DNA of 64,000 bases, from assembly GCA_001636495.1 (NCBI GenBank), contig KV440964.1, positions 1,194,666 to 1,258,665 of the forward strand. Direction: 5' to 3'. This document shows positions 9,449 through 28,527 of the stretch, piece by piece (positions within the stretch are counted from its first letter, which is position 1; each line of letters begins with the position of its first letter). The notes beneath the pieces are model-generated. The model worked only from the letters and a program-made list of their open reading frames with translations, made no database searches and was not told the DNA's origin. The DNA is from Sutcliffiella horikoshii. GTDB lineage: Bacteria > Bacillota > Bacilli > Bacillales > Bacillaceae_I. The position numbers and the translations under genes are program-made.

Positions 9449-9476
9449 ATGTGCGATTCGTTAATAGAAACTAATA

Positions 9477-9527
9477 TAAACCAGGTGCAAATCACTCCTT
9501 AAGTGATGGCACCTGGTTTATTTTTTA
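9477..9527. terminator. Bidirectional terminator between yrkJ and the giant gene
   Basis: A long stem (AACCAGGTGC / GCACCTGGTT, with inner ATCACT / AGTGAT) is followed on the plus strand by TATTTTTTA. It can also stop the converging giant gene on the minus strand. Confidence 0.85.
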
Positions 9528-9561
9528 TAGCCATATTGCTCTTCGGTAAGAACTTAAGAAC

Positions 9562-12500
9562 TTATATATCTAAACAATCAAACAGCACTTGACTAGCAAT
9601 AAATGTGTAAGGTGTGACTTGATCTTGCGTAACGACTGAAGTGAATACCCTTGGTGTAGGTGTTGGTGGATAGGAAGGTTTGCAAGAGTCATAACTTCCT
9701 TCTCCTCTTGCTTTTCGACGCAGAGCATTCTTATATCGGAAGTACTCATAAAGCGACATCTCACAAACTCTAGGGCGGCACTCTTCTTCACACTCACAGT
9801 CACAAGGGTCCACCGGTTTTGGTGGAGGCGGAACCGTTCCGCACGTAGTCCTTGTCGTTGTTACCAATGTGTAGTTCACATTCACTTGAACTTCTGAAGG
9901 AATGAACTCCTCTGTTCCTTCTTCCGTAATGCTTTGACACAATATGATGGAGGAAACGTCAATATCTTCAATGCTTAAAGTCACGTTGGAAGCAGAAGGT
10001 GTTTCGATTAAGATTTCCTCAAGCACCTGCGATAATGGGAGGATACGACTTGTGCATTGTTGCGTTTCTGAACTGTAGGACAGGACAACATATCCGCTGA
10101 CGGTTATCACATAACGTGTGCCATTTTCCTCTTCGGGGTTTCCGAGTTGCGTTAAGGTCACTAACGAAGACAAGGGCACAATATTTCCTTCATCATCCAC
10201 CGTAACAGTCGACACTTCTACTTCCCCTACAGCGCTACATGGACTATTTTGGAGTAAACTGAACTCCAGTAATAGATCTGTCAATTCTGGTACTGTCACT
10301 TCAAATGTCCGCGATTGGAAACCTGGTGCAGTAATGGTCACTTCATATACCCCTGCAGGTAGAGAGTCAAAGAAAAATAACCCATTGGATGTTACATCTG
10401 TAAATGGTCCGACTACCGGACCAGTAATGGTGACTATTGCTCCGTTTATAATTGTCCCATTCAATCTATTGAATACCAATCCCGTTAAAGTGCTCGGATT
10501 GTCGTCTAGATTAAATATGACAGCCCCGCTTGGAAGATTTACAATTTGCTGCTCGGAAACATATCCTTCCAACTGGACTATAACGAGATAATCTACACCT
10601 TCCCGCAGGTTATTAAAAATTATTTCGCCATTATTATCTGTTAAACCGCTGACCACAAAGTTAAAGTTGGTCCCATCAATAGCATAGACAAGTACCCTTG
10701 CATTCTCTAAAGGATTCGTATCATTATCTCTCACAATTACTTCTAAAGGAGAGGTATTTTGATCTAAAGTAACGTTAACGGTAGTGTTTCCTCCTGGAGT
10801 GATGGTGAACGGGATGCTCTCTGTTACAAAGCCTGGGCTTGAAACAACCAAGTTATAATCTCCAGCCGCCAAGCCCTCTATAAGATAATTGCCATCCGAA
10901 TCAGTTATCGTGGTAACGACTTCCAAATTGGTATTGACTATAACAACCGTCACACTAGAGCCCATTTGCGGGCCAGATACCACACCTGATACGGATCCAG
11001 GGTTACTATTCAACGGGATATTCAGTGTGCTCGATTGTAAAGCTGGAAGCACTAACTGATCTAACCTGATTTCATAATTTGGATAGGTGGTATTGATCCG
11101 ATAGTTCCCAGGCGCTAACCCTTCTGCCAAATACTCTCCATTCACTGAACTAAGCGTTCTCCTGACAAGCAAGCTCGTGTTGCTATCATAAATCTCTACC
11201 GTTGCCCCCACTAAAGGAATGGATGTGAGGCTGTCAAAAACAATTCCTGATAAGTTAACTGGGTTATCTCCTAATTCAATGTCAACGTTATTAGTATCTG
11301 CTGTAAGCTGAATGGTTCTTATTCCCGATTGATAATTAACATTAATGGCAGTAACGGTATAAAACCCTTCCGGAATGCCTGAAATCGAGTAAAACCCTTC
11401 CGTTCCCACTTGCCCACTGGTTTGTGTGGTACCTACAATATTTCCATCAATATCAATAATCCTGACAAGTGTATCAGCTAAGCCCAACCCATTATTGGTG
11501 ATGGTCCCAGTAATGGTAAATTCATTCTGATCAAGCATAAAACTGAGGTTATTGGTAGTGTCACTCACAATGATGGTACCTAATTGAGCAGATGCAAAGC
11601 CGTCTGCAGATACGAAAACGATATATGTCCCAGGGTTTAGTCCGGTGGAGAGAAAGTTTCCATCATTATCTGTTACACCGTTCCAAACGATAGGACCTGT
11701 GTTAGAGCCTTCCCTAATTAGAATGGAAGCGTTTGGTATTGGTGCTCCATCGCTTACACTTCCTGAGACAAAACCAGGGTTAGGAAGCAAAGCAAAACCA
11801 AGATTCACCGTCTCGTTAGAAATAATGATGGCTCCGGCAGTCTGTGGACCATAATTTAAACTGTCCGCATAGACCGTATAAGTTCCAGGATTAAGTCCAT
11901 TAAACTGATAATATCCATCCTGTCCGCTCACTACCTGACCTACAATCGTGTTAGAAAAATCAACAACAGTGATAACCGCTCCACTAATTGGAAGCCCCGT
12001 TAATACGTCTATCGCATACCCTTCCAGATTACCAGGAAGAGGAGATAACTCCAAAACGACTGACTGCGGATTCATGGAATCGCTAATGACACCTTTCGTA
12101 TCTGTTCCAAAGTTTTCTGCATCCGCTGAAATTATCAGGCTTGCTTCGGGAAGATTTGTAAATATAACCTCTCCGTTTTCATCCGTTACTCCAGTAGCAA
12201 GAATGAGATTATTGGATGCGTGTCGCACCGTTACCAGTGCACCGGGAATCCCGTTAACTGTATCTGCTACCAGAATTGTCACAATTACGGTTGTTACAAT
12301 GGCAGACAGAGGAACGTTAAGGGATACATCTGTACCATCCACAATAGCCGCAACTGTATTTGTATTAAAAGCAGGAGCGGAAGCTGTTACAAAATAAGTC
12401 CCATTCGGTATATTCAAAAATTGAAAACTGCCATCTAAGCTATTTGCCAGCGTGGTGGCTACCAATACATCATTCGTATTATACAGAGCAACCTGAATGT

Positions 12501-15500
12501 TTGGACCAACAAGCGGATTGGTCCCATCCGTTACAATCCCCGTTACAGTAAAGCTTGTGGGCTGTAATAAAATATTGGCCGCAGACGTAATACCTTCGAA
12601 AACAGTGACACCCTGAACCTCCGTACTAAAATTTGGTGCACTTGCAGTAATAGTATAGCTACCGACCGACAAAGATGGGATGAAGAAAGCGCCATTCAGA
12701 TCGGTGGAAACCGTCGCTACCACTGTATTGGTGGATACAGAACGAACAACGATGGTTGCGTCCGGAATAAAGTCCCCCGGATCCAAAATACTCGCAACCG
12801 TTCCCGAAATGTTCCCAACCGTTCTTGAGAGTGTGACATCCAACGTATTTGCCCCTGCTGCTATAACACTACCTAAGGCTACCGTTGAAAAATCAGGGGC
12901 GGTGACCCTCACGATGACAGTCCCTAACGGTAATCCCCCAAATGAATAAAAGCCGCTCGCATCCGTGAAGGCTGTACCAAGTATCGTTTCATTTAAGTCT
13001 GTTATCGTAACAATAGCATTTGGAATAGTTTGTGCAGGAGCATCCAAGGTACTGATTGTTCCACTTAAACTACCAACCACTGAAGACAAGGTGATATCTA
13101 CAATTGTGTTCGTATTTGCCTCAACAATGGCTCCTGCTCCGGCTGTTGAAAAGGTAGGTGCAGTAGCAGTAACAATATAGCTTCCAGGTGCCAAATTAGA
13201 AAAACTGTAAAAGCCTACTGAATCTGTTATGACGGAAGCGATGAACTGATTGGTAGAAGTATAAATCTGGACTTGTGCATTAGGTATAGGTACACTCAAT
13301 TCATCTGAAATGGTTCCGCTTATACTCCCTGGTTGAGTGTTCAAAGCCAAGTTCGCAACGCTGGTTGTATCTGCTATAACGATAGTACCAACGGACCCTT
13401 GCTCAAAATTTGCTGCAAAAGCGATGATGGTGTACCCACCAGGTGCCAAACCGCCGGAGCGGTAAAACCCCTGACTATCTGTAAAAATAGTTTGTATTAG
13501 GACCCCATTCTGGTCAATAACTTGAACGGTAGCCCCAGTAATTCCTTCGGTGGGCGCATCCGCATTGACGATGGTTCCCTGTATAAATCCTGGGTTTGGA
13601 AGAAGGAAAATATCCACATCTGTCAATTCCGCTTGGTCCAGTATGACAGTTGCCCCATTTGTCTGGAATCCTGTTGCAGACGCAATAAGGGTGTAAGTTC
13701 CAAAAGCCAAGTCAGGTGTTTGGTAGTTTCCGTTCCCGTCTGTTATAACCGTAGCCACAACTCCTCCACTGGCATCGAGCAGTCTTACTTCCACATTTGC
13801 CGCGGATATTGGTCCTCCCGTAGATAAAATGGTCCCGGATATAAACCCAGAGTTAGTGGTAAGGGTGAAATTGACTTCTGTTTCGGCATTCGATGAAACA
13901 ACGGCTCCTGATATAGCACTTTCAAAACCGAGAGCATTTACGAATACCACATAATTGCCAGGGGCCAGGTTAGGAACTCTGTAATACCCCTGCCTTAAGA
14001 CCATTCCTTCAGTAAATGTCCCTGTGACGGTCGTTGCAACAATCGGTCCTGCTGCAGAATCCTGTCTAATTGTCACCAGAGCCCCATTGATATCGGGATC
14101 GACCTCTCCAAAAATAGCCCCAGGGGAACCCTGTAATATAAAGTTAATCGTAGTTGTCTCGAATGCTTCCACAATAGCTCCGCTTACAGCTGTCTCGAAA
14201 TTATTAGCTGTAGCCACCACGGTATAAGAGCCGGGTGCGAGACTTGTAAACGAGTAATTTCCATTTTCATCCGCTTGCGTTACCCCTATTAAAATGCCGT
14301 TTTGAAGTAAATTAATGGTTGCTCCAGCCACATTAACCGTTCCTGAAATGTTACCTGCCAGTTTGTTCAGGGAAACATTGACTACCTCAGCTCCTGGCGG
14401 GGTTGGCATAATGAATCCTACTGTTCTGGACGCATACCCGTCTGAAGTGAAAACAAGGGTATACGACCCAGGTTCTACACCGGTAAAACTATAATTACCC
14501 GTAGCTGTTACTACTGTGTCAATATTTTGGCCTAAGCTATTAAAGAGGTTTACTGTACCAGGAATCAACGGATTGGTAATGTCATCCCCATCCCGAATCT
14601 GTCCAGTTAACTGTCCGGTAGAAGCCACCAAGTTAAAATCAACTTCGGTCGATAAATCAGCTAACGTAATCACCGCTCCAATTTGCTGTGGAACATACCC
14701 ATCTGCATTTGCCCTTACCGTATAAGAACCGGGGGCCAGCCCTGAAATGGAGTAGGTACCCATGACATTTTCCAAGCTTGTAACAAGGATACCTTCACTT
14801 GTAAAAACAGAAATAGTAGTAGCCACCATAATTGGAGTGATGGTTCCGCTAATGGTTCCTACAATTGCGGATAAATTAAAATTCACCGTGGAGGTTTGAT
14901 TGGTTAATACGGTAACCCCGCGTGAATCGAATTGATATGCTGAATTTGTGGCCGTAACCGTATAACTACCAGGTGGTACATTTGTAAAAGAGTAAAGTCC
15001 TCCGCCGGCGGTAGTCGTTGTCTCCCTGACCGTACCAAAAGAATCAATTAGCGTCATCGTAACTCCATCTACTGGTGTTGCTACCCCTGTTGTCACTTGC
15101 CCACTAATGGTCCCTGGAACAGGAGTCAATAGGATGTCTTGTTCCAAAGCAGTATTTGCAATAACCGTCACATTCACCACTGACTGTTGATAGTTGGTAC
15201 CAGTAACGGTTACTGTGTAGTTACCAGAGGGTATGTTGGAAAAGCTGTAATTCCCCCCACTGTTACTGATAGTTTGCAAGTTTGCAGGTCCGGTAATAGT
15301 AACGGTAGCCCCAATAACGGGAAGACCGGTTAAGTTATCTAAAATTCTCCCAAAAAGACTACCTGCTGCGGTTACGGAAACAGTCGTACTGAAAGCACTT
15401 GAAATATCCCCCCCTGTAAAACTGTCAAACCCTCTAGCGGTGGACTGGTCTAGTGTTCTGGTTCCGGATGTGGAGAAAATACCAGTTGCCGTATAGGATA

Positions 15501-16413
15501 GAGTAGCAGATCCCCCAGGAGCGATAGTTCCAATATTCCAAGACAATGTTTTGTTTGCTGAGGTAAAGACCCCTGTGCCTTGTGAAGTGGCATTAACTGT
15601 GAAACTTGAAACCGTATCTAGCCCTATAAGGTCGGTGACTGTTACCGATGTTGCATTTGACCTCCCTGTATTACTGATTGTTATAGTCTCGGTCCAAACT
15701 GCTTGCTGGCCAACTAGTACAGGATTGGGTCCACTTACTAAATTTTTTACTACTTGGAGTTCCGCACGCACATCGACATCATCTGCTGAAACAGGATCAG
15801 ACTGAGACGCGATAAAACTGAACCCCTCGCTAGTTCTCAAGGAATCCTTATTATAATTATTGGCGTTCGCAGAAGAATAAAAAATTGTACTTAACTGAGT
15901 GGTGGGAGTTATACCGAGTGCACCAAAAAATGTGGAAGCCGGCAAAAACCAGTCAAGGAAAAAATCCGGATCCCCGCCAAACGAACTGTTTGCCGGAAGT
16001 ACGCGAGCAAAATTATAATTCGATATAGGTTGACTAACTAATAAAACCTCTGCAGGATCATTCCACGAATTGAATACCTGCGCTGTATTTCGCCAAATAT
16101 TTACCGTGCTACTCAACCCATTTACATTAAACATATAATCATAAAAACCAGCCGGACTTGTTGTACGAATCAGTACCCCCCAGGAAAAATTTCGAAAACC
16201 AGAGAGTTGATTATTTCTCGGATCGGTATTCAATCTTAGACGAAAATAAACATTTGCCCCGTCATAGGCAAAATAAGCTGCAGGGAAGGTTGCATTCCCT
16301 ACAATATCGGTGGAAGAAGGGTTCTCATCTCCTACCACATCAAACACTGTTTGAGTAACCCCATTCACTGTTATCGAAATGGGGACATACTGTGAATCAC
16401 TAGGATAAGCCAT
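9562..16413 (-). CDS. Giant repeat protein with 20 carboxypeptidase-regulatory-like domains
   Basis: A 2283-residue protein. Residues 1 to about 220 form a beta-rich N-terminal domain that I do not recognise; about 220-350 resemble DUF11. Then come 20 tandem units of 78-92 residues, each like PGxISGTV...GATV...T..G.Y.F..L.PG.YTV, the CarboxypepD_reg/Cna-B-like fold. From about 2060 the chain has a different C-terminal region containing all the cysteines I can find, including a CDCECEEEC cluster, and ends LFDCLDI. I see no signal peptide, transmembrane helix or LPXTG motif, so the usual surface-adhesin route is not evident. Deposition on the spore from the mother cell would explain this, but that is inference. 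The start ATG has an AAGGAG site 8 nt upstream. Confidence 0.88.
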   Translation of the reverse strand: MAYPSDSQYVPISITVNGVTQTVFDVVGDENPSSTDIVGNATFPAAYFAYDGANVYFRLRLNTDPRNNQLSGFRNFSWGVLIRTTSPAGFYDYMFNVNGLSSTVNIWRNTAQVFNSWNDPAEVLLVSQPISNYNFARVLPANSSFGGDPDFFLDWFLPASTFFGALGITPTTQLSTIFYSSANANNYNKDSLRTSEGFSFIASQSDPVSADDVDVRAELQVVKNLVSGPNPVLVGQQAVWTETITISNTGRSNATSVTVTDLIGLDTVSSFTVNATSQGTGVFTSANKTLSWNIGTIAPGGSATLSYTATGIFSTSGTRTLDQSTARGFDSFTGGDISSAFSTTVSVTAAGSLFGRILDNLTGLPVIGATVTITGPANLQTISNSGGNYSFSNIPSGNYTVTVTGTNYQQSVVNVTVIANTALEQDILLTPVPGTISGQVTTGVATPVDGVTMTLIDSFGTVRETTTTAGGGLYSFTNVPPGSYTVTATNSAYQFDSRGVTVLTNQTSTVNFNLSAIVGTISGTITPIMVATTISVFTSEGILVTSLENVMGTYSISGLAPGSYTVRANADGYVPQQIGAVITLADLSTEVDFNLVASTGQLTGQIRDGDDITNPLIPGTVNLFNSLGQNIDTVVTATGNYSFTGVEPGSYTLVFTSDGYASRTVGFIMPTPPGAEVVNVSLNKLAGNISGTVNVAGATINLLQNGILIGVTQADENGNYSFTSLAPGSYTVVATANNFETAVSGAIVEAFETTTINFILQGSPGAIFGEVDPDINGALVTIRQDSAAGPIVATTVTGTFTEGMVLRQGYYRVPNLAPGNYVVFVNALGFESAISGAVVSSNAETEVNFTLTTNSGFISGTILSTGGPISAANVEVRLLDASGGVVATVITDGNGNYQTPDLAFGTYTLIASATGFQTNGATVILDQAELTDVDIFLLPNPGFIQGTIVNADAPTEGITGATVQVIDQNGVLIQTIFTDSQGFYRSGGLAPGGYTIIAFAANFEQGSVGTIVIADTTSVANLALNTQPGSISGTISDELSVPIPNAQVQIYTSTNQFIASVITDSVGFYSFSNLAPGSYIVTATAPTFSTAGAGAIVEANTNTIVDITLSSVVGSLSGTISTLDAPAQTIPNAIVTITDLNETILGTAFTDASGFYSFGGLPLGTVIVRVTAPDFSTVALGSVIAAGANTLDVTLSRTVGNISGTVASILDPGDFIPDATIVVRSVSTNTVVATVSTDLNGAFFIPSLSVGSYTITASAPNFSTEVQGVTVFEGITSAANILLQPTSFTVTGIVTDGTNPLVGPNIQVALYNTNDVLVATTLANSLDGSFQFLNIPNGTYFVTASAPAFNTNTVAAIVDGTDVSLNVPLSAIVTTVIVTILVADTVNGIPGALVTVRHASNNLILATGVTDENGEVIFTNLPEASLIISADAENFGTDTKGVISDSMNPQSVVLELSPLPGNLEGYAIDVLTGLPISGAVITVVDFSNTIVGQVVSGQDGYYQFNGLNPGTYTVYADSLNYGPQTAGAIIISNETVNLGFALLPNPGFVSGSVSDGAPIPNASILIREGSNTGPIVWNGVTDNDGNFLSTGLNPGTYIVFVSADGFASAQLGTIIVSDTTNNLSFMLDQNEFTITGTITNNGLGLADTLVRIIDIDGNIVGTTQTSGQVGTEGFYSISGIPEGFYTVTAINVNYQSGIRTIQLTADTNNVDIELGDNPVNLSGIVFDSLTSIPLVGATVEIYDSNTSLLVRRTLSSVNGEYLAEGLAPGNYRINTTYPNYEIRLDQLVLPALQSSTLNIPLNSNPGSVSGVVSGPQMGSSVTVVIVNTNLEVVTTITDSDGNYLIEGLAAGDYNLVVSSPGFVTESIPFTITPGGNTTVNVTLDQNTSPLEVIVRDNDTNPLENARVLVYAIDGTNFNFVVSGLTDNNGEIIFNNLREGVDYLVIVQLEGYVSEQQIVNLPSGAVIFNLDDNPSTLTGLVFNRLNGTIINGAIVTITGPVVGPFTDVTSNGLFFFDSLPAGVYEVTITAPGFQSRTFEVTVPELTDLLLEFSLLQNSPCSAVGEVEVSTVTVDDEGNIVPLSSLVTLTQLGNPEEENGTRYVITVSGYVVLSYSSETQQCTSRILPLSQVLEEILIETPSASNVTLSIEDIDVSSIILCQSITEEGTEEFIPSEVQVNVNYTLVTTTRTTCGTVPPPPKPVDPCDCECEEECRPRVCEMSLYEYFRYKNALRRKARGEGSYDSCKPSYPPTPTPRVFTSVVTQDQVTPYTFIASQVLFDCLDI

Positions 16414-16433
16414 GTTGTCACTCCTTTTAGAAC

Positions 16434-16441
16434 AGTGTATA
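16434..16441 (-). promoter_or_regulatory. Possible sporulation-type -10 element of the giant gene
   Basis: The minus strand reads TATACACT, one mismatch from the SigE-type -10 CATACACT, and would place the transcript start just before the ribosome site. I see no convincing -35, so this is weak support for sporulation control. Confidence 0.25.
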
Positions 16442-16565
16442 GGGAATAGGTAGGTGATGTGCTAGGAATTTGTTGAAGGGATAAAATGTACAAGTCAAAA
16501 TTTCCCCATACAAATCTTGCTCATGTATAATGAAACCAACTACTTAAAAAGAAGGTTGCCTTGGT

Positions 16566-17824: not shown

Positions 17825-18002
17825 TTCAGATAATGCATCTCAGTTTGTTAATATATCCCTTAATGTGACAAAAAAACTATTATTCTGACTATTTTTAAAG
17901 CTTTTGAACTATTCAGTGTAGCGAATTAGGTTAATATGTCGTATGTCCACTTTGATGAACCTCCTTCATAATAAAATGGAAGTTGTTAGACTTTAAAGAA
18001 TT

Positions 18003-18056
18003 TTTACAATTACTTTACTACAAAACAACAATACGTTTACAGAGCTCGCGTATATT
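18003..18056 (+). promoter_or_regulatory. Predicted PhoP box and promoter of the secreted nuclease gene
   Basis: Half-sites of the TTHAYA type occur at 18003 (TTTACA), 18014 (TTTACT), 18025 (ACAACA, weaker) and 18036 (TTTACA), an exact 11-bp phase. A -10 hexamer TATATT is at 18051-18056. Relative to the expected start near 18063 the half-sites span about -60 to -22, the known core region for PhoP~P in Bacillus. The rest of 17825-18099 shows nothing else. Confidence 0.65.
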
Positions 18057-18099
18057 GAGAAAGTGTACGACGTCCAACCATTATAAAGGAGGAAAACAA

Positions 18100-21000
18100 A
18101 TGCGACATCATTCTAAAAGAGTTGTCATGATTCTATTAGCTTTCATATTAGTATTCTCTAATCTAATGCCTGCTATGAACGTTACAACTTATGCGGCAGA
18201 AAACCAGTCAACTGCTATTACAGTGGAGCAAGCCATTGCCAATAATAGCGGTACAGCGAATGTAGAGGGGTATATTGTGGGGACGGTAGTTTCCACGAAT
18301 AATTTTGACTTAGAAGCCCCTTGGTCCCAAAATACTAATTTAGCTATAGCGGACTCCCCGACAGAGACAGACATTCGTAAAATGTTACCTATCCAATTAA
18401 CTACTTCAGGAGCTAACATCAGAAGTGCTCTTAATTTAGCCGATAACCCAGAAAAACACCACGCAAAGGTTCAAATTACAGGTACTTTGGAAGCTTACTT
18501 TACCGTACCAGGTTTGAGAAATCCTAGTGCTTTCACCATCATCGACGGCGGCCAGGATCCTGAACCTCCAGCAGAACCAGAACTTATCACACTTGCAGAG
18601 GCACGCACGAAAAGTGTTGGCCAAGAAGTCATCGTTCAAGGTGTTGTCACAGCGGACAATGCAGCAATTGGCGGTGGGAAACTATCCACTTACATACAAG
18701 ATGAAACAGCAGGAATTAATTTGTTTTCCAATAGCCTATCAGGTTTTCCTAATTTAGTAGAAGGTCAAAAAGTAGAAGTAAGAGGAAAAATTGCTCTTTA
18801 CAACGGCCTGCTTGAAATCATGCCGAATGCAAATGGCATAGAAATTTTAGCGGAAAATGAGACTCTTCCAGAACCTACACCAATTACTATAGAAGAATTA
18901 CAATCAGCAACCGTTGCTGAACCATTAGAGGGTCAGCTTGTAACTGTAACAGGTTACGTTTCCAACAAGCCTTCCACTCCAGCTGGTGGAGGATACAATG
19001 TTACATTGACAGACAATGATTTTAACTCTACAACATTACGTGTTATGGAAGGAACGAATGCAATTGATGCATTGGAAGCGGGCAAGTGGTATGAGATTAC
19101 CGCTATCCTTAGCCAATACAACACGTATCAAATACTACCTAGAAAAGCATCTGATATCGTATTGGCTGCAGAGCAACCAGAACCACCAAGTGCAGCAGGT
19201 GAATACCCGGCTGTAGTAGAGCGTGTAACGGATGGCGATACGATACGTATCACTTCTCCATTATTCGGTTCCCAAAGTGTTCGTTATGTAAATATCGACA
19301 CGCCGGAAACCTATCATTCTATTAGAAACGAACTTGATCAAAATCAGATGGATCATGGAAAACGTGCTACAGAACACATGCAATCCTTGTTAAAAGCAGG
19401 GGACGAGGTCATTTTGAAAATAGGTGATGAGCCGACTGACAATTATGGCCGTATCTTGGCACAGGTTTTACGTAAATCAGACCGACTAAATACAAACCTT
19501 GAAATGGCAAAAGAAGGATTTGCGGTGACGTATTTCATCTGGCCGGTTGGTCCTGAAGATGAATATAACGAATTCCAGACAGCAGTGAAGGAAGCGAAGG
19601 ATGCTGGGAAAGGTATCTGGAGTGAAGAGGATCCATTATTGGAGCTTCCGACATTCTTCCGTGCACGCTATGAAAATAATGCATTAAACAAGCCGGTTGG
19701 AAACTCGGATACGAAAGAATATGTGCAACCTACTGAATGGGAAAACGTTCCTGTTGAGAAACGCATCTTCTTCTGGAATGAAGCAGAGGCATTAGCAGCT
19801 GGCTTCACACCTGCTGAGGATGGTGGAGAAGAGCCAAATCCAAATCCGGGCGAGCTTGTATCCGTTCAGCTTATAGGAATGAATGACTTACACGGTAAGA
19901 TTGATCAGACTTATGACTTATCAAGAGACTATGGCATTGCAGCGGCAGGCCGTATGGATTATGTTTCCGCATATCTGAAAGACCGCAGAGAACAAAATCC
20001 TAACACTTTGATTGTGCATGCAGGGGACATGATTGGTGGAAGCTCACCAGTTGCAGCCTTGCTTCAAGATGAGCCGGTTGTGGAAATTATGAACGAAATC
20101 GGATTTGATATTGGTACTGTCGGAAACCATGAGTTTGATGAGGGTACGACAGAATTCTTGCGTATGGTGAATGGTGGAGACCATCCGGAAGGAAAGGGTA
20201 CAGAAGGATATGAAGGAATGAATTTCCCGAATGTTTGTGCCAACTGTGTCTGGAAAGACTCCGGTGAAACCTTCCTGCCTCCTTATGAAATTTTAGAGGT
20301 TGGCGGAGAACAGATCGGGTTTATCGGTGTAAACACCACGGCAACATTGAACATGGTCATTCCAGACGGCATCCAAGATATCACGTTTACAAACGAAGTG
20401 GATGCAGTTAATGAAGCGACAGAAGAGTTAAAAGAGCAAGGAATCAAAGCAATTGTTGTCCTTTCTCATATGCCAGCATCCCAATCAGGGGAAACGGCTA
20501 CTGGGGACGCGGCAAACCTTGCGAAAAATGTAGACGATGAAGTGGACGTTATTTTTGCAGCACATAACCACGAAATCGTAAATGCAATGGTGGATAACAA
20601 ACTGATTGTCCAAGCATTGGATTATGGAAAAGCATTTTCTGCAGTAGACCTTGAAATCGATCCGGAAACAGGCGATATCGTAAACAAGGAAGCGGAAATT
20701 GTGTTTGTTGATCAAAGCAAAATGGATCCAGATCCAGTTGTAACGGAAATTATTGCAAACTATGAAAATCGCATTGCGCCTATTTTGAATAAAGTAGTCG
20801 GAGTAGCAGAAGTTGCGATGGAAGGCGGATATGGCGTTCGTGGAGAAGTTGGCGACAACGCCCTTGGAAACCTGATCGCAGATGGCATGAAAGCGGAAAT
20901 GGATGCGGACTTTGCCTTGATGAATGGCGGCGGAATCCGTGACAACCTAAATCAAGGGGATATCACTTGGGGCGAATTGTTCAACATCCAACCGTTCAAC

Positions 21001-21714
21001 AATGTATTGATGAAGCTTGAAATTAAAGGTACAGATCTATATACAATTATGAATGCACAACTACAGGCTCCATATGGACCTGATTACAGTATTGCTGGAT
21101 TCCACTATACATGGGATGGCTCCACTTACAAAGTGGTGGATATCACTTTCCCTGATGGTTCACCTATTGATAAGGAAGCAACATACACAGTTGTAACAAA
21201 CAACTTTATGGCAACCTCTACAGGAAGCAAGTACCGCCCTATTGGAGAGCTTGGCAAAAATCCTGTAACAGGACCAGAAGACTTAGAAGCTACGGTTAAC
21301 TTTGTTCGCAGCTTTGACGGACCGATTAACTATGTAGCAGAAGGGCGTATCTCGGAAGTGAGTGAGCCAGGATATGAAGAGCCGGAAGTGAAATATACGG
21401 TTGAGAATATCTTCCTTGATGCAAAAGGAAAAGAATTGAAGAAGTTAGAAAGAAAGTCTGATGTAACAATAAGCACTACAATTGCTAATCATGTTCGCGA
21501 TGCTCGTGAGTTCACGGTTTCTGTGGAATTGGTGGACAAGCATGGCAGAGTGAAACACTCTTCGGAAGAAAGCTATGAAGTAGCGGGTGAGAGTGAAGAG
21601 GTATTTAGTGAAGAAGTTTCCATTCCGGCAAACCACACTGGTCAGCGCTATACGTTGACGGTTGTAGTGAAGGAAGCGGAAGGTGCGGTAGTGGAGAGAA
21701 GCGAAATTAAATAG
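18100..21714 (+). CDS. Secreted multidomain nuclease / 5'-nucleotidase (YhcR-like)
   Basis: A 1204-residue secreted protein; start ATG 18100 has AAAGGAGG 7 nt upstream, and longer in-frame starts lack one. Order: Sec signal peptide (about 1-33), DUF6359-like and OB-fold domains (to about 360), a staphylococcal-nuclease domain at about 368-515 (VTDGDTIRI, YVNIDTPET), then a metallophosphatase/5'-nucleotidase from about 590 with MNDLHGK, HAGDMIGG, GNHEFDEGT and HNHE, followed by a 5'-nucleotidase C-terminal domain with NGGGIRDN. B. subtilis YhcR has this layout and ends in a sortase signal. Here the C-terminus has neither LPXTG-like motif nor transmembrane helix, so release into the medium is likely. 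It would degrade nucleic acids to nucleosides and phosphate. Confidence 0.9.
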   Translation: MRHHSKRVVMILLAFILVFSNLMPAMNVTTYAAENQSTAITVEQAIANNSGTANVEGYIVGTVVSTNNFDLEAPWSQNTNLAIADSPTETDIRKMLPIQLTTSGANIRSALNLADNPEKHHAKVQITGTLEAYFTVPGLRNPSAFTIIDGGQDPEPPAEPELITLAEARTKSVGQEVIVQGVVTADNAAIGGGKLSTYIQDETAGINLFSNSLSGFPNLVEGQKVEVRGKIALYNGLLEIMPNANGIEILAENETLPEPTPITIEELQSATVAEPLEGQLVTVTGYVSNKPSTPAGGGYNVTLTDNDFNSTTLRVMEGTNAIDALEAGKWYEITAILSQYNTYQILPRKASDIVLAAEQPEPPSAAGEYPAVVERVTDGDTIRITSPLFGSQSVRYVNIDTPETYHSIRNELDQNQMDHGKRATEHMQSLLKAGDEVILKIGDEPTDNYGRILAQVLRKSDRLNTNLEMAKEGFAVTYFIWPVGPEDEYNEFQTAVKEAKDAGKGIWSEEDPLLELPTFFRARYENNALNKPVGNSDTKEYVQPTEWENVPVEKRIFFWNEAEALAAGFTPAEDGGEEPNPNPGELVSVQLIGMNDLHGKIDQTYDLSRDYGIAAAGRMDYVSAYLKDRREQNPNTLIVHAGDMIGGSSPVAALLQDEPVVEIMNEIGFDIGTVGNHEFDEGTTEFLRMVNGGDHPEGKGTEGYEGMNFPNVCANCVWKDSGETFLPPYEILEVGGEQIGFIGVNTTATLNMVIPDGIQDITFTNEVDAVNEATEELKEQGIKAIVVLSHMPASQSGETATGDAANLAKNVDDEVDVIFAAHNHEIVNAMVDNKLIVQALDYGKAFSAVDLEIDPETGDIVNKEAEIVFVDQSKMDPDPVVTEIIANYENRIAPILNKVVGVAEVAMEGGYGVRGEVGDNALGNLIADGMKAEMDADFALMNGGGIRDNLNQGDITWGELFNIQPFNNVLMKLEIKGTDLYTIMNAQLQAPYGPDYSIAGFHYTWDGSTYKVVDITFPDGSPIDKEATYTVVTNNFMATSTGSKYRPIGELGKNPVTGPEDLEATVNFVRSFDGPINYVAEGRISEVSEPGYEEPEVKYTVENIFLDAKGKELKKLERKSDVTISTTIANHVRDAREFTVSVELVDKHGRVKHSSEESYEVAGESEEVFSEEVSIPANHTGQRYTLTVVVKEAEGAVVERSEIK

Positions 21715-28191: not shown

Positions 28192-28527
28192 TTACTGCAT
28201 TCCATTGTTTCCATAAGGAAATTGGTTCGTGTAGCCCTGGAACTGTTGATATTCCTGTTGAAGTTTCGTCTGATCGGCAGGCTCAAGCCCATACCAGCCT
28301 TTTTGGAACATCATATTGTATAGCTCACGCTGACAGTTCTGTGTTTCATTGAAGATTGCAAGCAGATCAGTATAGATTTGCTGGTTGCTTGCTTCATTTA
28401 ATGCTGTGCAATAGGAATCGGTCATGTATTTTTCCGTCGCCAGCATGTCGTTTATAAAGTCTCGTTCATTCATTTGCGGTGTCTTGGCAACCTGAGACTC
28501 CGGGTTCTGAATTTTTTGCTGATTCAT
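28192..28527 (-). CDS. Spore coat protein, CotF family
   Basis: A 111-residue protein with the helical coat-F type domain: MNERDFINDMLATEKYMT, then NETQNCQRELYNMMFQKGWYGLEPAD. The C-terminus is Gln/Tyr-rich, common in coat proteins. It has no signal peptide, as expected for a protein made in the mother cell. It is paired with a second coat-like gene 18 bp upstream on the same strand. B. subtilis has the coat-like gene yusN near fadM, so position is conserved too. Confidence 0.85.
   Translation of the reverse strand: MNQQKIQNPESQVAKTPQMNERDFINDMLATEKYMTDSYCTALNEASNQQIYTDLLAIFNETQNCQRELYNMMFQKGWYGLEPADQTKLQQEYQQFQGYTNQFPYGNNGMQ

Follow-up and report, generated by a model that had tools for sequence, protein, structure and literature searches.

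A giant leaderless repeat protein of Sutcliffiella horikoshii, probably a stalk protein of the spore surface

We identified, in a 64,000-nucleotide stretch of Sutcliffiella horikoshii DNA (the window), a gene for a giant protein that is probably a stalk protein of the spore surface. The family to which it belongs comprises about 60 giant proteins from endospore-forming Bacilli, appears not to have been described before, and is defined by its N-terminal domain (N-domain). The nap and appendages of spores determine what the spores adhere to, and outside Bacillus cereus and its relatives most nap and appendage proteins are, to our knowledge, unknown. A recognisable and widespread family that is apparently located on spores would offer a testable gene in each carrier genus, including Rossellomorea, Priestia, Metabacillus, Fictibacillus, Brevibacillus, and Paenibacillus.

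The gene is on the minus strand (9562..16413) and encodes 2283 amino acids, giving a product of about 238 kDa with a pI of 4.05 and 0.4% lysine. Its ATG start codon is at 16413 and is preceded by a ribosome-binding site, AAAAGGAG, found by sequence inspection (16421..16428, minus strand). A preliminary description of the gene had reported, without naming a strand, a chain of 2283 residues with 20 repeat units, an unfamiliar N-terminal domain, and cysteines confined to the end of the chain. The length of the open reading frame was confirmed, Pfam gave exactly 20 PF13620 stretches, and the N-domain has no sequence match in Pfam, NCBIfam, or the PDB. All 11 cysteines occur at residues 2059-2280 (the last 225 residues), in a C-terminal region without family assignment (aa 2053-2283; 9562..10257, minus strand).

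The N-domain (aa 1-212; 15778..16413, minus strand) was delimited by alignments, a predicted model, and fold matches. It starts at residue 1 without a leader, a defining feature of the family, and is 44-65% identical to those of Bacilli relatives, with 28 invariant columns in 36 alignment rows. DUF11 took up all the matches in a fold search with a longer model, and the N-domain was therefore modelled and compared separately. The predicted model (pLDDT 88.7) is a beta-sandwich resembling CBM9 and DOMON domains, and its best fold match, unaccompanied by any sequence match, was glucodextranase 1ug9 (Z 11.8, 3.3 A over 159). Other fold matches were the CBM74 of Sas6 (Z 10.9), an ethylbenzene dehydrogenase subunit (Z 10.0), and CBM9 1i82 (Z 6.6). 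The preliminary description missed a DUF11 Ig-like domain between the N-domain and the repeat array (aa 216-345; 15379..15768, minus strand; Pfam match at aa 221-339). It is supported by Pfam, a model, and fold matches, and the model matches the CLIPPER domain of the fibrillar adhesin 9ifr (Z 11.7). As in the family generally, DUF11 is followed by a colinear transthyretin-like array. The N-domain, with its predicted CBM9-like fold, and DUF11 are conserved throughout the family, whereas the C-terminal cysteine cluster is not.

The array consists of 20 PF13620 transthyretin-like units (aa 353-2052; 10258..15357, minus strand; Pfam E 1e-208). The protein's composition is lysine-poor, acidic, and rich in threonine and serine; residues 346-2040 contain two lysines in 1695 residues and no cysteine, and arginines in the array are likewise few. 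The original "Cna-B" label for these units is partly apt, as SpaA/SdrD-type Pfam models match them too, but with so few lysines the Lys-Asn isopeptide crosslinks of Cna-B domains are impossible in most units. Unit counts across the family range from 18 to about 80 and are nearly constant within clades. Units are colinear between genera (23 of 23, 35 of 35, and 25 of 27 in three comparisons), and 14 of the 20 units in the S. horikoshii protein match Rossellomorea units position by position. The near-constant number and positional correspondence suggest a stalk whose length is under selection. Unit counts that are nearly fixed and specific to each clade would mean that the length of the surface fibre is genetically set, in contrast to the length-variable collagen stalk of BclA.

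The C-termini of several relatives point to the spore coat. Coat_X (PF07552) is found at the C-termini of two plasmid-encoded P. megaterium members of 7159 and 7457 aa (E 9e-19 and 1e-10, both above the cut-off). A domain like the BMQ_0737 family occurs C-terminally in members from Rossellomorea, Priestia abyssalis, and Bacillus BHET2 (E 4e-13 to 2e-17; 50-64 bits, below the 71-bit cut-off of NF052457). In Thalassobacillus, Metabacillus, and Sediminibacillus, a full BMQ_0737-family gene is directly downstream of the family member (E 8e-59 to 8e-55); no other gene neighbourhood shared across the family was found. In P. megaterium, BMQ_0737, CotX1, and CotX2 have been described as the proteins lying outermost on the spore (PMC4656864). 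The S. horikoshii genome contains both partner families. The C-terminus of its giant protein matched none of the spore-coat models searched: Coat_X was not found with Pfam, NF052457 gave no match at E 10, and comparison with an alignment of the BMQ_0737-like domains was marginal (hhalign probability 25%, P 8e-4). Many relatives, such as those in Paenibacillus and Brevibacillus, likewise have no recognised C-terminal coat domain. Docking of the C-terminus into the coat is plausible. Crosslinking to the coat through the cysteine cluster, as initially suggested, cannot be the general mechanism, because C-terminal cysteines are few or absent in the Paenibacillus, Cohnella, and Brevibacillus members.

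In agreement with the initial reading, the S. horikoshii protein has no hydrophobic N-terminus, clear membrane helix, or LPXTG-like motif; its highest 19-residue hydropathy (2.18) is within a repeat unit. The reading frame upstream of the ATG contains a stop within 17 codons, and therefore there is no space for a longer leader. No export signal was found in any Bacilli family member examined. The preliminary description had regarded a type I or other secretion partner as evidence against its proposal, and no such export gene adjoins the window gene.

The weak SigE-like -10 element mentioned previously is present, as part of a SigE/SigK-like promoter, GCACATC-N14-TATACACT (16434..16462, minus strand), which is weak alone. 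The site agrees with SigE at 12 of 15 positions. Among 539 control genes 2.0% attain this score, as do none of 37 control genes within the window; its SigK score of 8 is reached by 16% of controls. Across the family, the SigK -10 element CATANNNTA is upstream of 15 of 64 genes versus 12 of 539 controls (Fisher 3e-9); by genus, it is found in 7 of 19 versus 1.3 expected (P 1.5e-4). SigG and SigA motifs showed no such enrichment in the family's upstream regions. The family-wide promoter signal is SigK and not SigE; the window gene's own site alone leans to SigE. These upstream sequences suggest that the family is controlled like late sporulation genes.

The family was found almost only in spore-forming bacteria. 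In a class sample of 399 genomes, SpoIVA is present in all 16 strong carriers, and a BMQ_0737-family gene in 15 of the 16 versus 62 of the 399 overall. Both associations are partly lineage effects, since sporulation is common to most Bacilli genera and BMQ_0737 is also present in Brevibacillus that are not carriers. In S. horikoshii the giant gene is a lone insertion of about 7 kb, found in none of 15 other congeners searched. Four congeners lack the inserted segment (9450..16478, no strand assigned) at the syntenic position, where their flanking matches are 72-436 bp apart. Paralogy with the two other PF13620-rich giants of the same genome was rejected, as the sequences of these two resemble secreted S8 proteases and are unrelated to the giant protein. 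A phage origin was also rejected; the N-domain is encoded in no phage record. Clostridia have a form with the N-domain and DUF11 and no stalk, which fits the role of a distal head poorly. A literature search combining the domain name with spore terms found nothing relevant, and the four small proteins named from the spore surface of Brevibacillus laterosporus (PMC5335551) do not include this one.

The preliminary description proposed a spore-surface stalk or adhesin made by the mother cell. Its stated reasons were weak, but the core idea is supported by independent evidence: the coat domains at relatives' C-termini, the coat gene adjoining in three genera, the SigK-type promoters across the family, and the lack of export signals in those Bacilli members that were inspected. 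We infer the location, extended form, orientation, and ligand of the protein, as well as its filament form and appendage function. The sporulating mother cell would synthesize the protein in leaderless form, under SigE/SigK control, and, judging from its relatives, the protein would be assembled onto the outermost spore layer. The 20 stacked units may form a stalk of roughly 70-80 nm if extended at an estimated 3.5-4 nm per unit, with an N-terminal head consisting of the CBM9-like domain and the DUF11 Ig-like domain. We favour docking to the coat or crust through the C-terminus, since this is the end at which Coat_X or BMQ_0737-like domains are found in relatives. That would leave the conserved head pointing outward, and its ligand would probably be a glycan. 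A broader proposal, to which we give not quite an even chance, is that these are single-chain spore appendages. The giant leaderless protein would itself be the fibre. Its length, an estimated 65-320 nm for 18 to about 80 units, would be genetically set by a nearly fixed count of domains that are not interchangeable. The docking domains at the C-terminus would be swappable and the glycan-binding head conserved, and the gene would spread both on its own and on plasmids.

The opposite orientation is possible, though clearly less probable: the N-domain and DUF11 could be anchored in the coat or exosporium like the BclA N-terminus, leaving the variable C-terminus as the exposed tip. In its favour, the N-domain is universal while the C-termini vary by lineage, the Clostridial members comprise the N-domain and DUF11 alone, and DUF11 domains occur in F-Anchor-3, which has been proposed as an anchor on the spore surface of C. 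aceticum (PMC11952670). However, the recognised spore-coat domains are C-terminal, and the predicted resemblance of the N-domain to glycan-binding modules fits a ligand-facing head.

Near-constant unit number and position-wise orthology of the units would also suit an interlayer spacer, a buried matrix or length-setting component between coat and exosporium with no projecting stalk. We consider this unlikely, as the acidic, lysine-poor, Thr/Ser-rich composition and CBM9-like head look surface-exposed, and the patchy presence among congeners better fits an accessory surface trait than a structural layer. Less likely still is a non-classically exported adhesin, either secreted or on the surface of vegetative cells. 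The architecture does resemble that of fibrillar adhesins, and the DUF11 model matches the CLIPPER domain, but the examined Bacilli members have no leader, the frame here leaves no room for one, no export gene adjoins, and relatives have Coat_X or BMQ_0737-like C-termini and SigK motifs.

As a spore-surface stalk, the protein would share features with several known systems. The BMQ_0737 and CotX outer coat proteins are related through family members that carry these domains C-terminally or adjoin the gene, but they are small, and neither type of domain was detected in the S. horikoshii protein. SdrD/Cna-B-type and fibrillar adhesins of Gram-positive bacteria also have a stalk of repeated beta-sandwich domains, and DUF11 resembles CLIPPER; the S. 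horikoshii protein differs in having no signal peptide or sortase signal and almost no lysine for isopeptides. The BclA glycoproteins of the exosporium nap are an analogy, as long leaderless stalk proteins displayed on the spore surface. The BclA-type exosporium leader TIGR03720 was absent in an NCBIfam scan of the whole S. horikoshii protein and no collagen repeats were seen; unlike BclA, it strings globular beta-sandwich units together in one chain, and the number of units is near-constant within clades. S-ENA, F-ENA, and F-Anchor are likewise analogous as spore-attached fibres without a Sec signal, and F-Anchor-3 also uses DUF11 modules. The S. horikoshii genome gave no match to DUF4183 (F-ENA) or to PF13157 (S-/L-ENA), the latter also giving none in control genomes. 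The ENAs are polymers of small subunits, whereas the stalk described here would be one giant chain.

The giant open reading frame (16413 to 9562, minus strand, ATG start) encodes a 2283-residue protein in which an N-terminal domain of about 210 residues (the N-domain) is followed by a DUF11 domain (aa 221-339) and 20 PF13620 stretches identified by Pfam and mapped to aa 353-2052. The preliminary description had counted the same 20 units and called the N-terminal domain unfamiliar, and indeed the N-domain had no match in any family library searched and no PDB sequence match. It had also reported the lack of an export or sortase signal, which we confirm: there is no hydrophobic N-terminus or LPXTG-like motif, and the reading frame 5' of the ATG closes within 17 codons. 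The protein is acidic (pI 4.05, 0.4% Lys, one His), and all 11 cysteines lie within residues 2059-2280, at the C-terminal end as described. The units had been likened to both Cna-B and carboxypeptidase-regulatory domains. The array has 2 lysines in its 1695 residues, which rules out Cna-B-style isopeptide bonds in most units; carboxypeptidase-regulatory or transthyretin-like is the better name for them.

AlphaFold2 gave confident models for aa 1-345 (pLDDT 93.9) and aa 1-212 (88.7). The DUF11 model matches Ig-like domains, and among these is CLIPPER, from a fibrillar adhesin (9ifr, Z 11.7, 2.6 A over 115). The N-domain model alone is similar in fold to sugar-binding and related sandwiches, the best being glucodextranase (Z 11.8, 3.3 A over 159), with CBM74 of Sas6 (Z 10.9), an ethylbenzene dehydrogenase subunit (10.0), and CBM9 (6.6) also matching; the best Foldseek E-value was only 3e-3. 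Glycan binding by the N-domain is a reasonable guess, no more.

Searching 84,980 species genomes with the N-domain gave 67 loci, and by this similarity the window protein is a family member and not an orphan. We found no description of the family in the literature searched, most subscription journals being outside its scope. Nearly all loci belong to endospore-forming genera of the Bacilli: Rossellomorea, Priestia, Metabacillus, Fictibacillus, Alkalihalobacillus, Halobacillus, Thalassobacillus, Sediminibacillus, Ectobacillus, Brevibacillus, Marininema, Cohnella, and Paenibacillus, with members also on P. megaterium plasmids. No leader was found in the Bacilli members examined, whose chains begin at the folded domain. 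In a class sample of 399 genomes, 18 had an N-domain match; SpoIVA was present in all 16 strong carriers, versus 268 of 399 overall, and one of the two weak-match genomes was absent from the SpoIVA carriers. In Metabacillus halosaccharovorans the giant frame (L057, 9995-12217) ends after about 740 aa, likely by frameshift or assembly error; its relative in M. niabensis is full length. A Bacillus-like member in a cyanobacterial (Moorena) MAG, L054 (contig WTKN01000305.1), is probably contamination.

Within the host genus, the N-domain was absent from 15 of 15 congeners searched. In the four examined, 72-436 bp separate the TauE-gene flank from the sequence beyond 16.5 kb, compared with 7 kb in the window, so the gene and its promoter are an accessory single-gene insertion or were lost in all the others. 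Its GC content (43.8%) is that of its surroundings. Nearby, a 1243-aa protein (17983-21714) has a signal peptide-like stretch and nuclease or 5'-nucleotidase-like sequence; in several congeners this frame is about 1400 aa, with an extra segment.

Unit counts are almost constant within clades. Cohnella has 17, Marininema and every Paenibacillus member counted have 18, and Brevibacillus has 21. A count of 23 is shared by Rossellomorea, one Metabacillus, Thalassobacillus, and Sediminibacillus; P. abyssalis has 26, Fictibacillus and Alkalihalobacillus have either 27 or 35, and the proteins of two P. megaterium plasmids have 77 and 81. Because their loci are truncated ahead of the stop codon, the 37 counts, together with those of L054 and L065, are minima. 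Units in different genera also match position for position (23/23, 35/35, 25/27), including 14 of the 20 window units with those of Rossellomorea, with a less clear match in the most remote pairs (9-12 of 18). This marks the arrays as old and colinear and not products of recent slippage, and selection on length would be the natural reading.

We scored the family's upstream regions for both sporulation and vegetative sigma factors, with other genes of the same loci as controls. The SigK -10 CATANNNTA was found upstream of 15 of 64 family genes versus 12 of 539 controls (Fisher 3e-9). To allow for non-independence among relatives, we also counted by genus, giving 7 of 19 groups versus 1.3 expected (P 1.5e-4). 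In deduplicated regions the full SigK motif was 5 SD over shuffles, and the full SigE, SigG, and SigA motifs showed no clear enrichment. The window gene's own promoter-like site, GCACATC-N14-TATACACT, 28 bases before the ATG, fits SigE (12/15, reached by 2.0% of controls) better than SigK (8/10, reached by 16%), which is weak by itself. The SigE-like -10 noted previously is present at this gene, whereas the family-wide enrichment is for SigK.

Several relatives carry spore-coat domains. Of the P. megaterium plasmid members, the two read from end to end (7159 and 7457 aa) terminate in Coat_X (PF07552, over cut-off), and the C-terminal domains of the Rossellomorea, Priestia abyssalis, and Bacillus BHET2 members score 50-64 bits against NF052457, the "BMQ_0737 family morphogenetic spore coat protein" (cut-off 71 bits). 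The gene that follows in Thalassobacillus, Metabacillus, and Sediminibacillus encodes a full BMQ_0737-family member (186-199 bits). On the basis of antibody access, BMQ_0737 and both CotX proteins are described as the outermost proteins of the P. megaterium spore (PMC4656864). In the class sample a BMQ_0737-family gene is present in 15 of 16 strong carriers versus 62 of 399 genomes overall, a count dominated by genus g65 (Brevibacillus according to the match), whose non-carriers also have the gene. The window protein's C-terminus matches neither Coat_X nor the BMQ_0737 family; its hhalign probability against a BMQ_0737-like set (25%, P 8e-4) is only a hint. Elsewhere in the host genome there is a single BMQ_0737-family gene, and one open frame holds two Coat_X matches. 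In the window, a 111-aa protein (28192-28527, minus strand) resembles CotF-type coat proteins by eye. On the P. megaterium plasmids, the giant genes adjoin a polysaccharide cluster (L019 4588-8382, L020 5096-8893) that possibly serves to glycosylate the spore surface. It comprises wecB and genes for polysaccharide biosynthesis, an SDR, and an epimerase, and sulfotransferase and glycosyltransferase genes lie further on.

The best explanation, which we consider probable, is that the window gene encodes a predicted leaderless, mother-cell-made stalk protein of the spore surface. We favor the C-terminus as the putative anchored end because the recognizable coat domains are located there. Crosslinking through C-terminal cysteines, as proposed earlier, fails as a general mechanism, since the last 300 residues of members from Paenibacillus, Cohnella, and Brevibacillus contain 0-2 cysteines.

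The few distant N-domain matches come from Clostridia and from deltaproteobacterial and myxobacterial MAGs. Clostridium peptidivorans and a Clostridiales MAG have stalkless proteins of about 320-360 aa (L105, 9965-10918; L106, 4474-5562) with several cysteines and a second half that is DUF11-like by eye, possibly the older form of the family. Two other distant members (L102 and L108) end in a hydrophobic stretch and arginines, an arrangement resembling that of a membrane-anchored surface protein.
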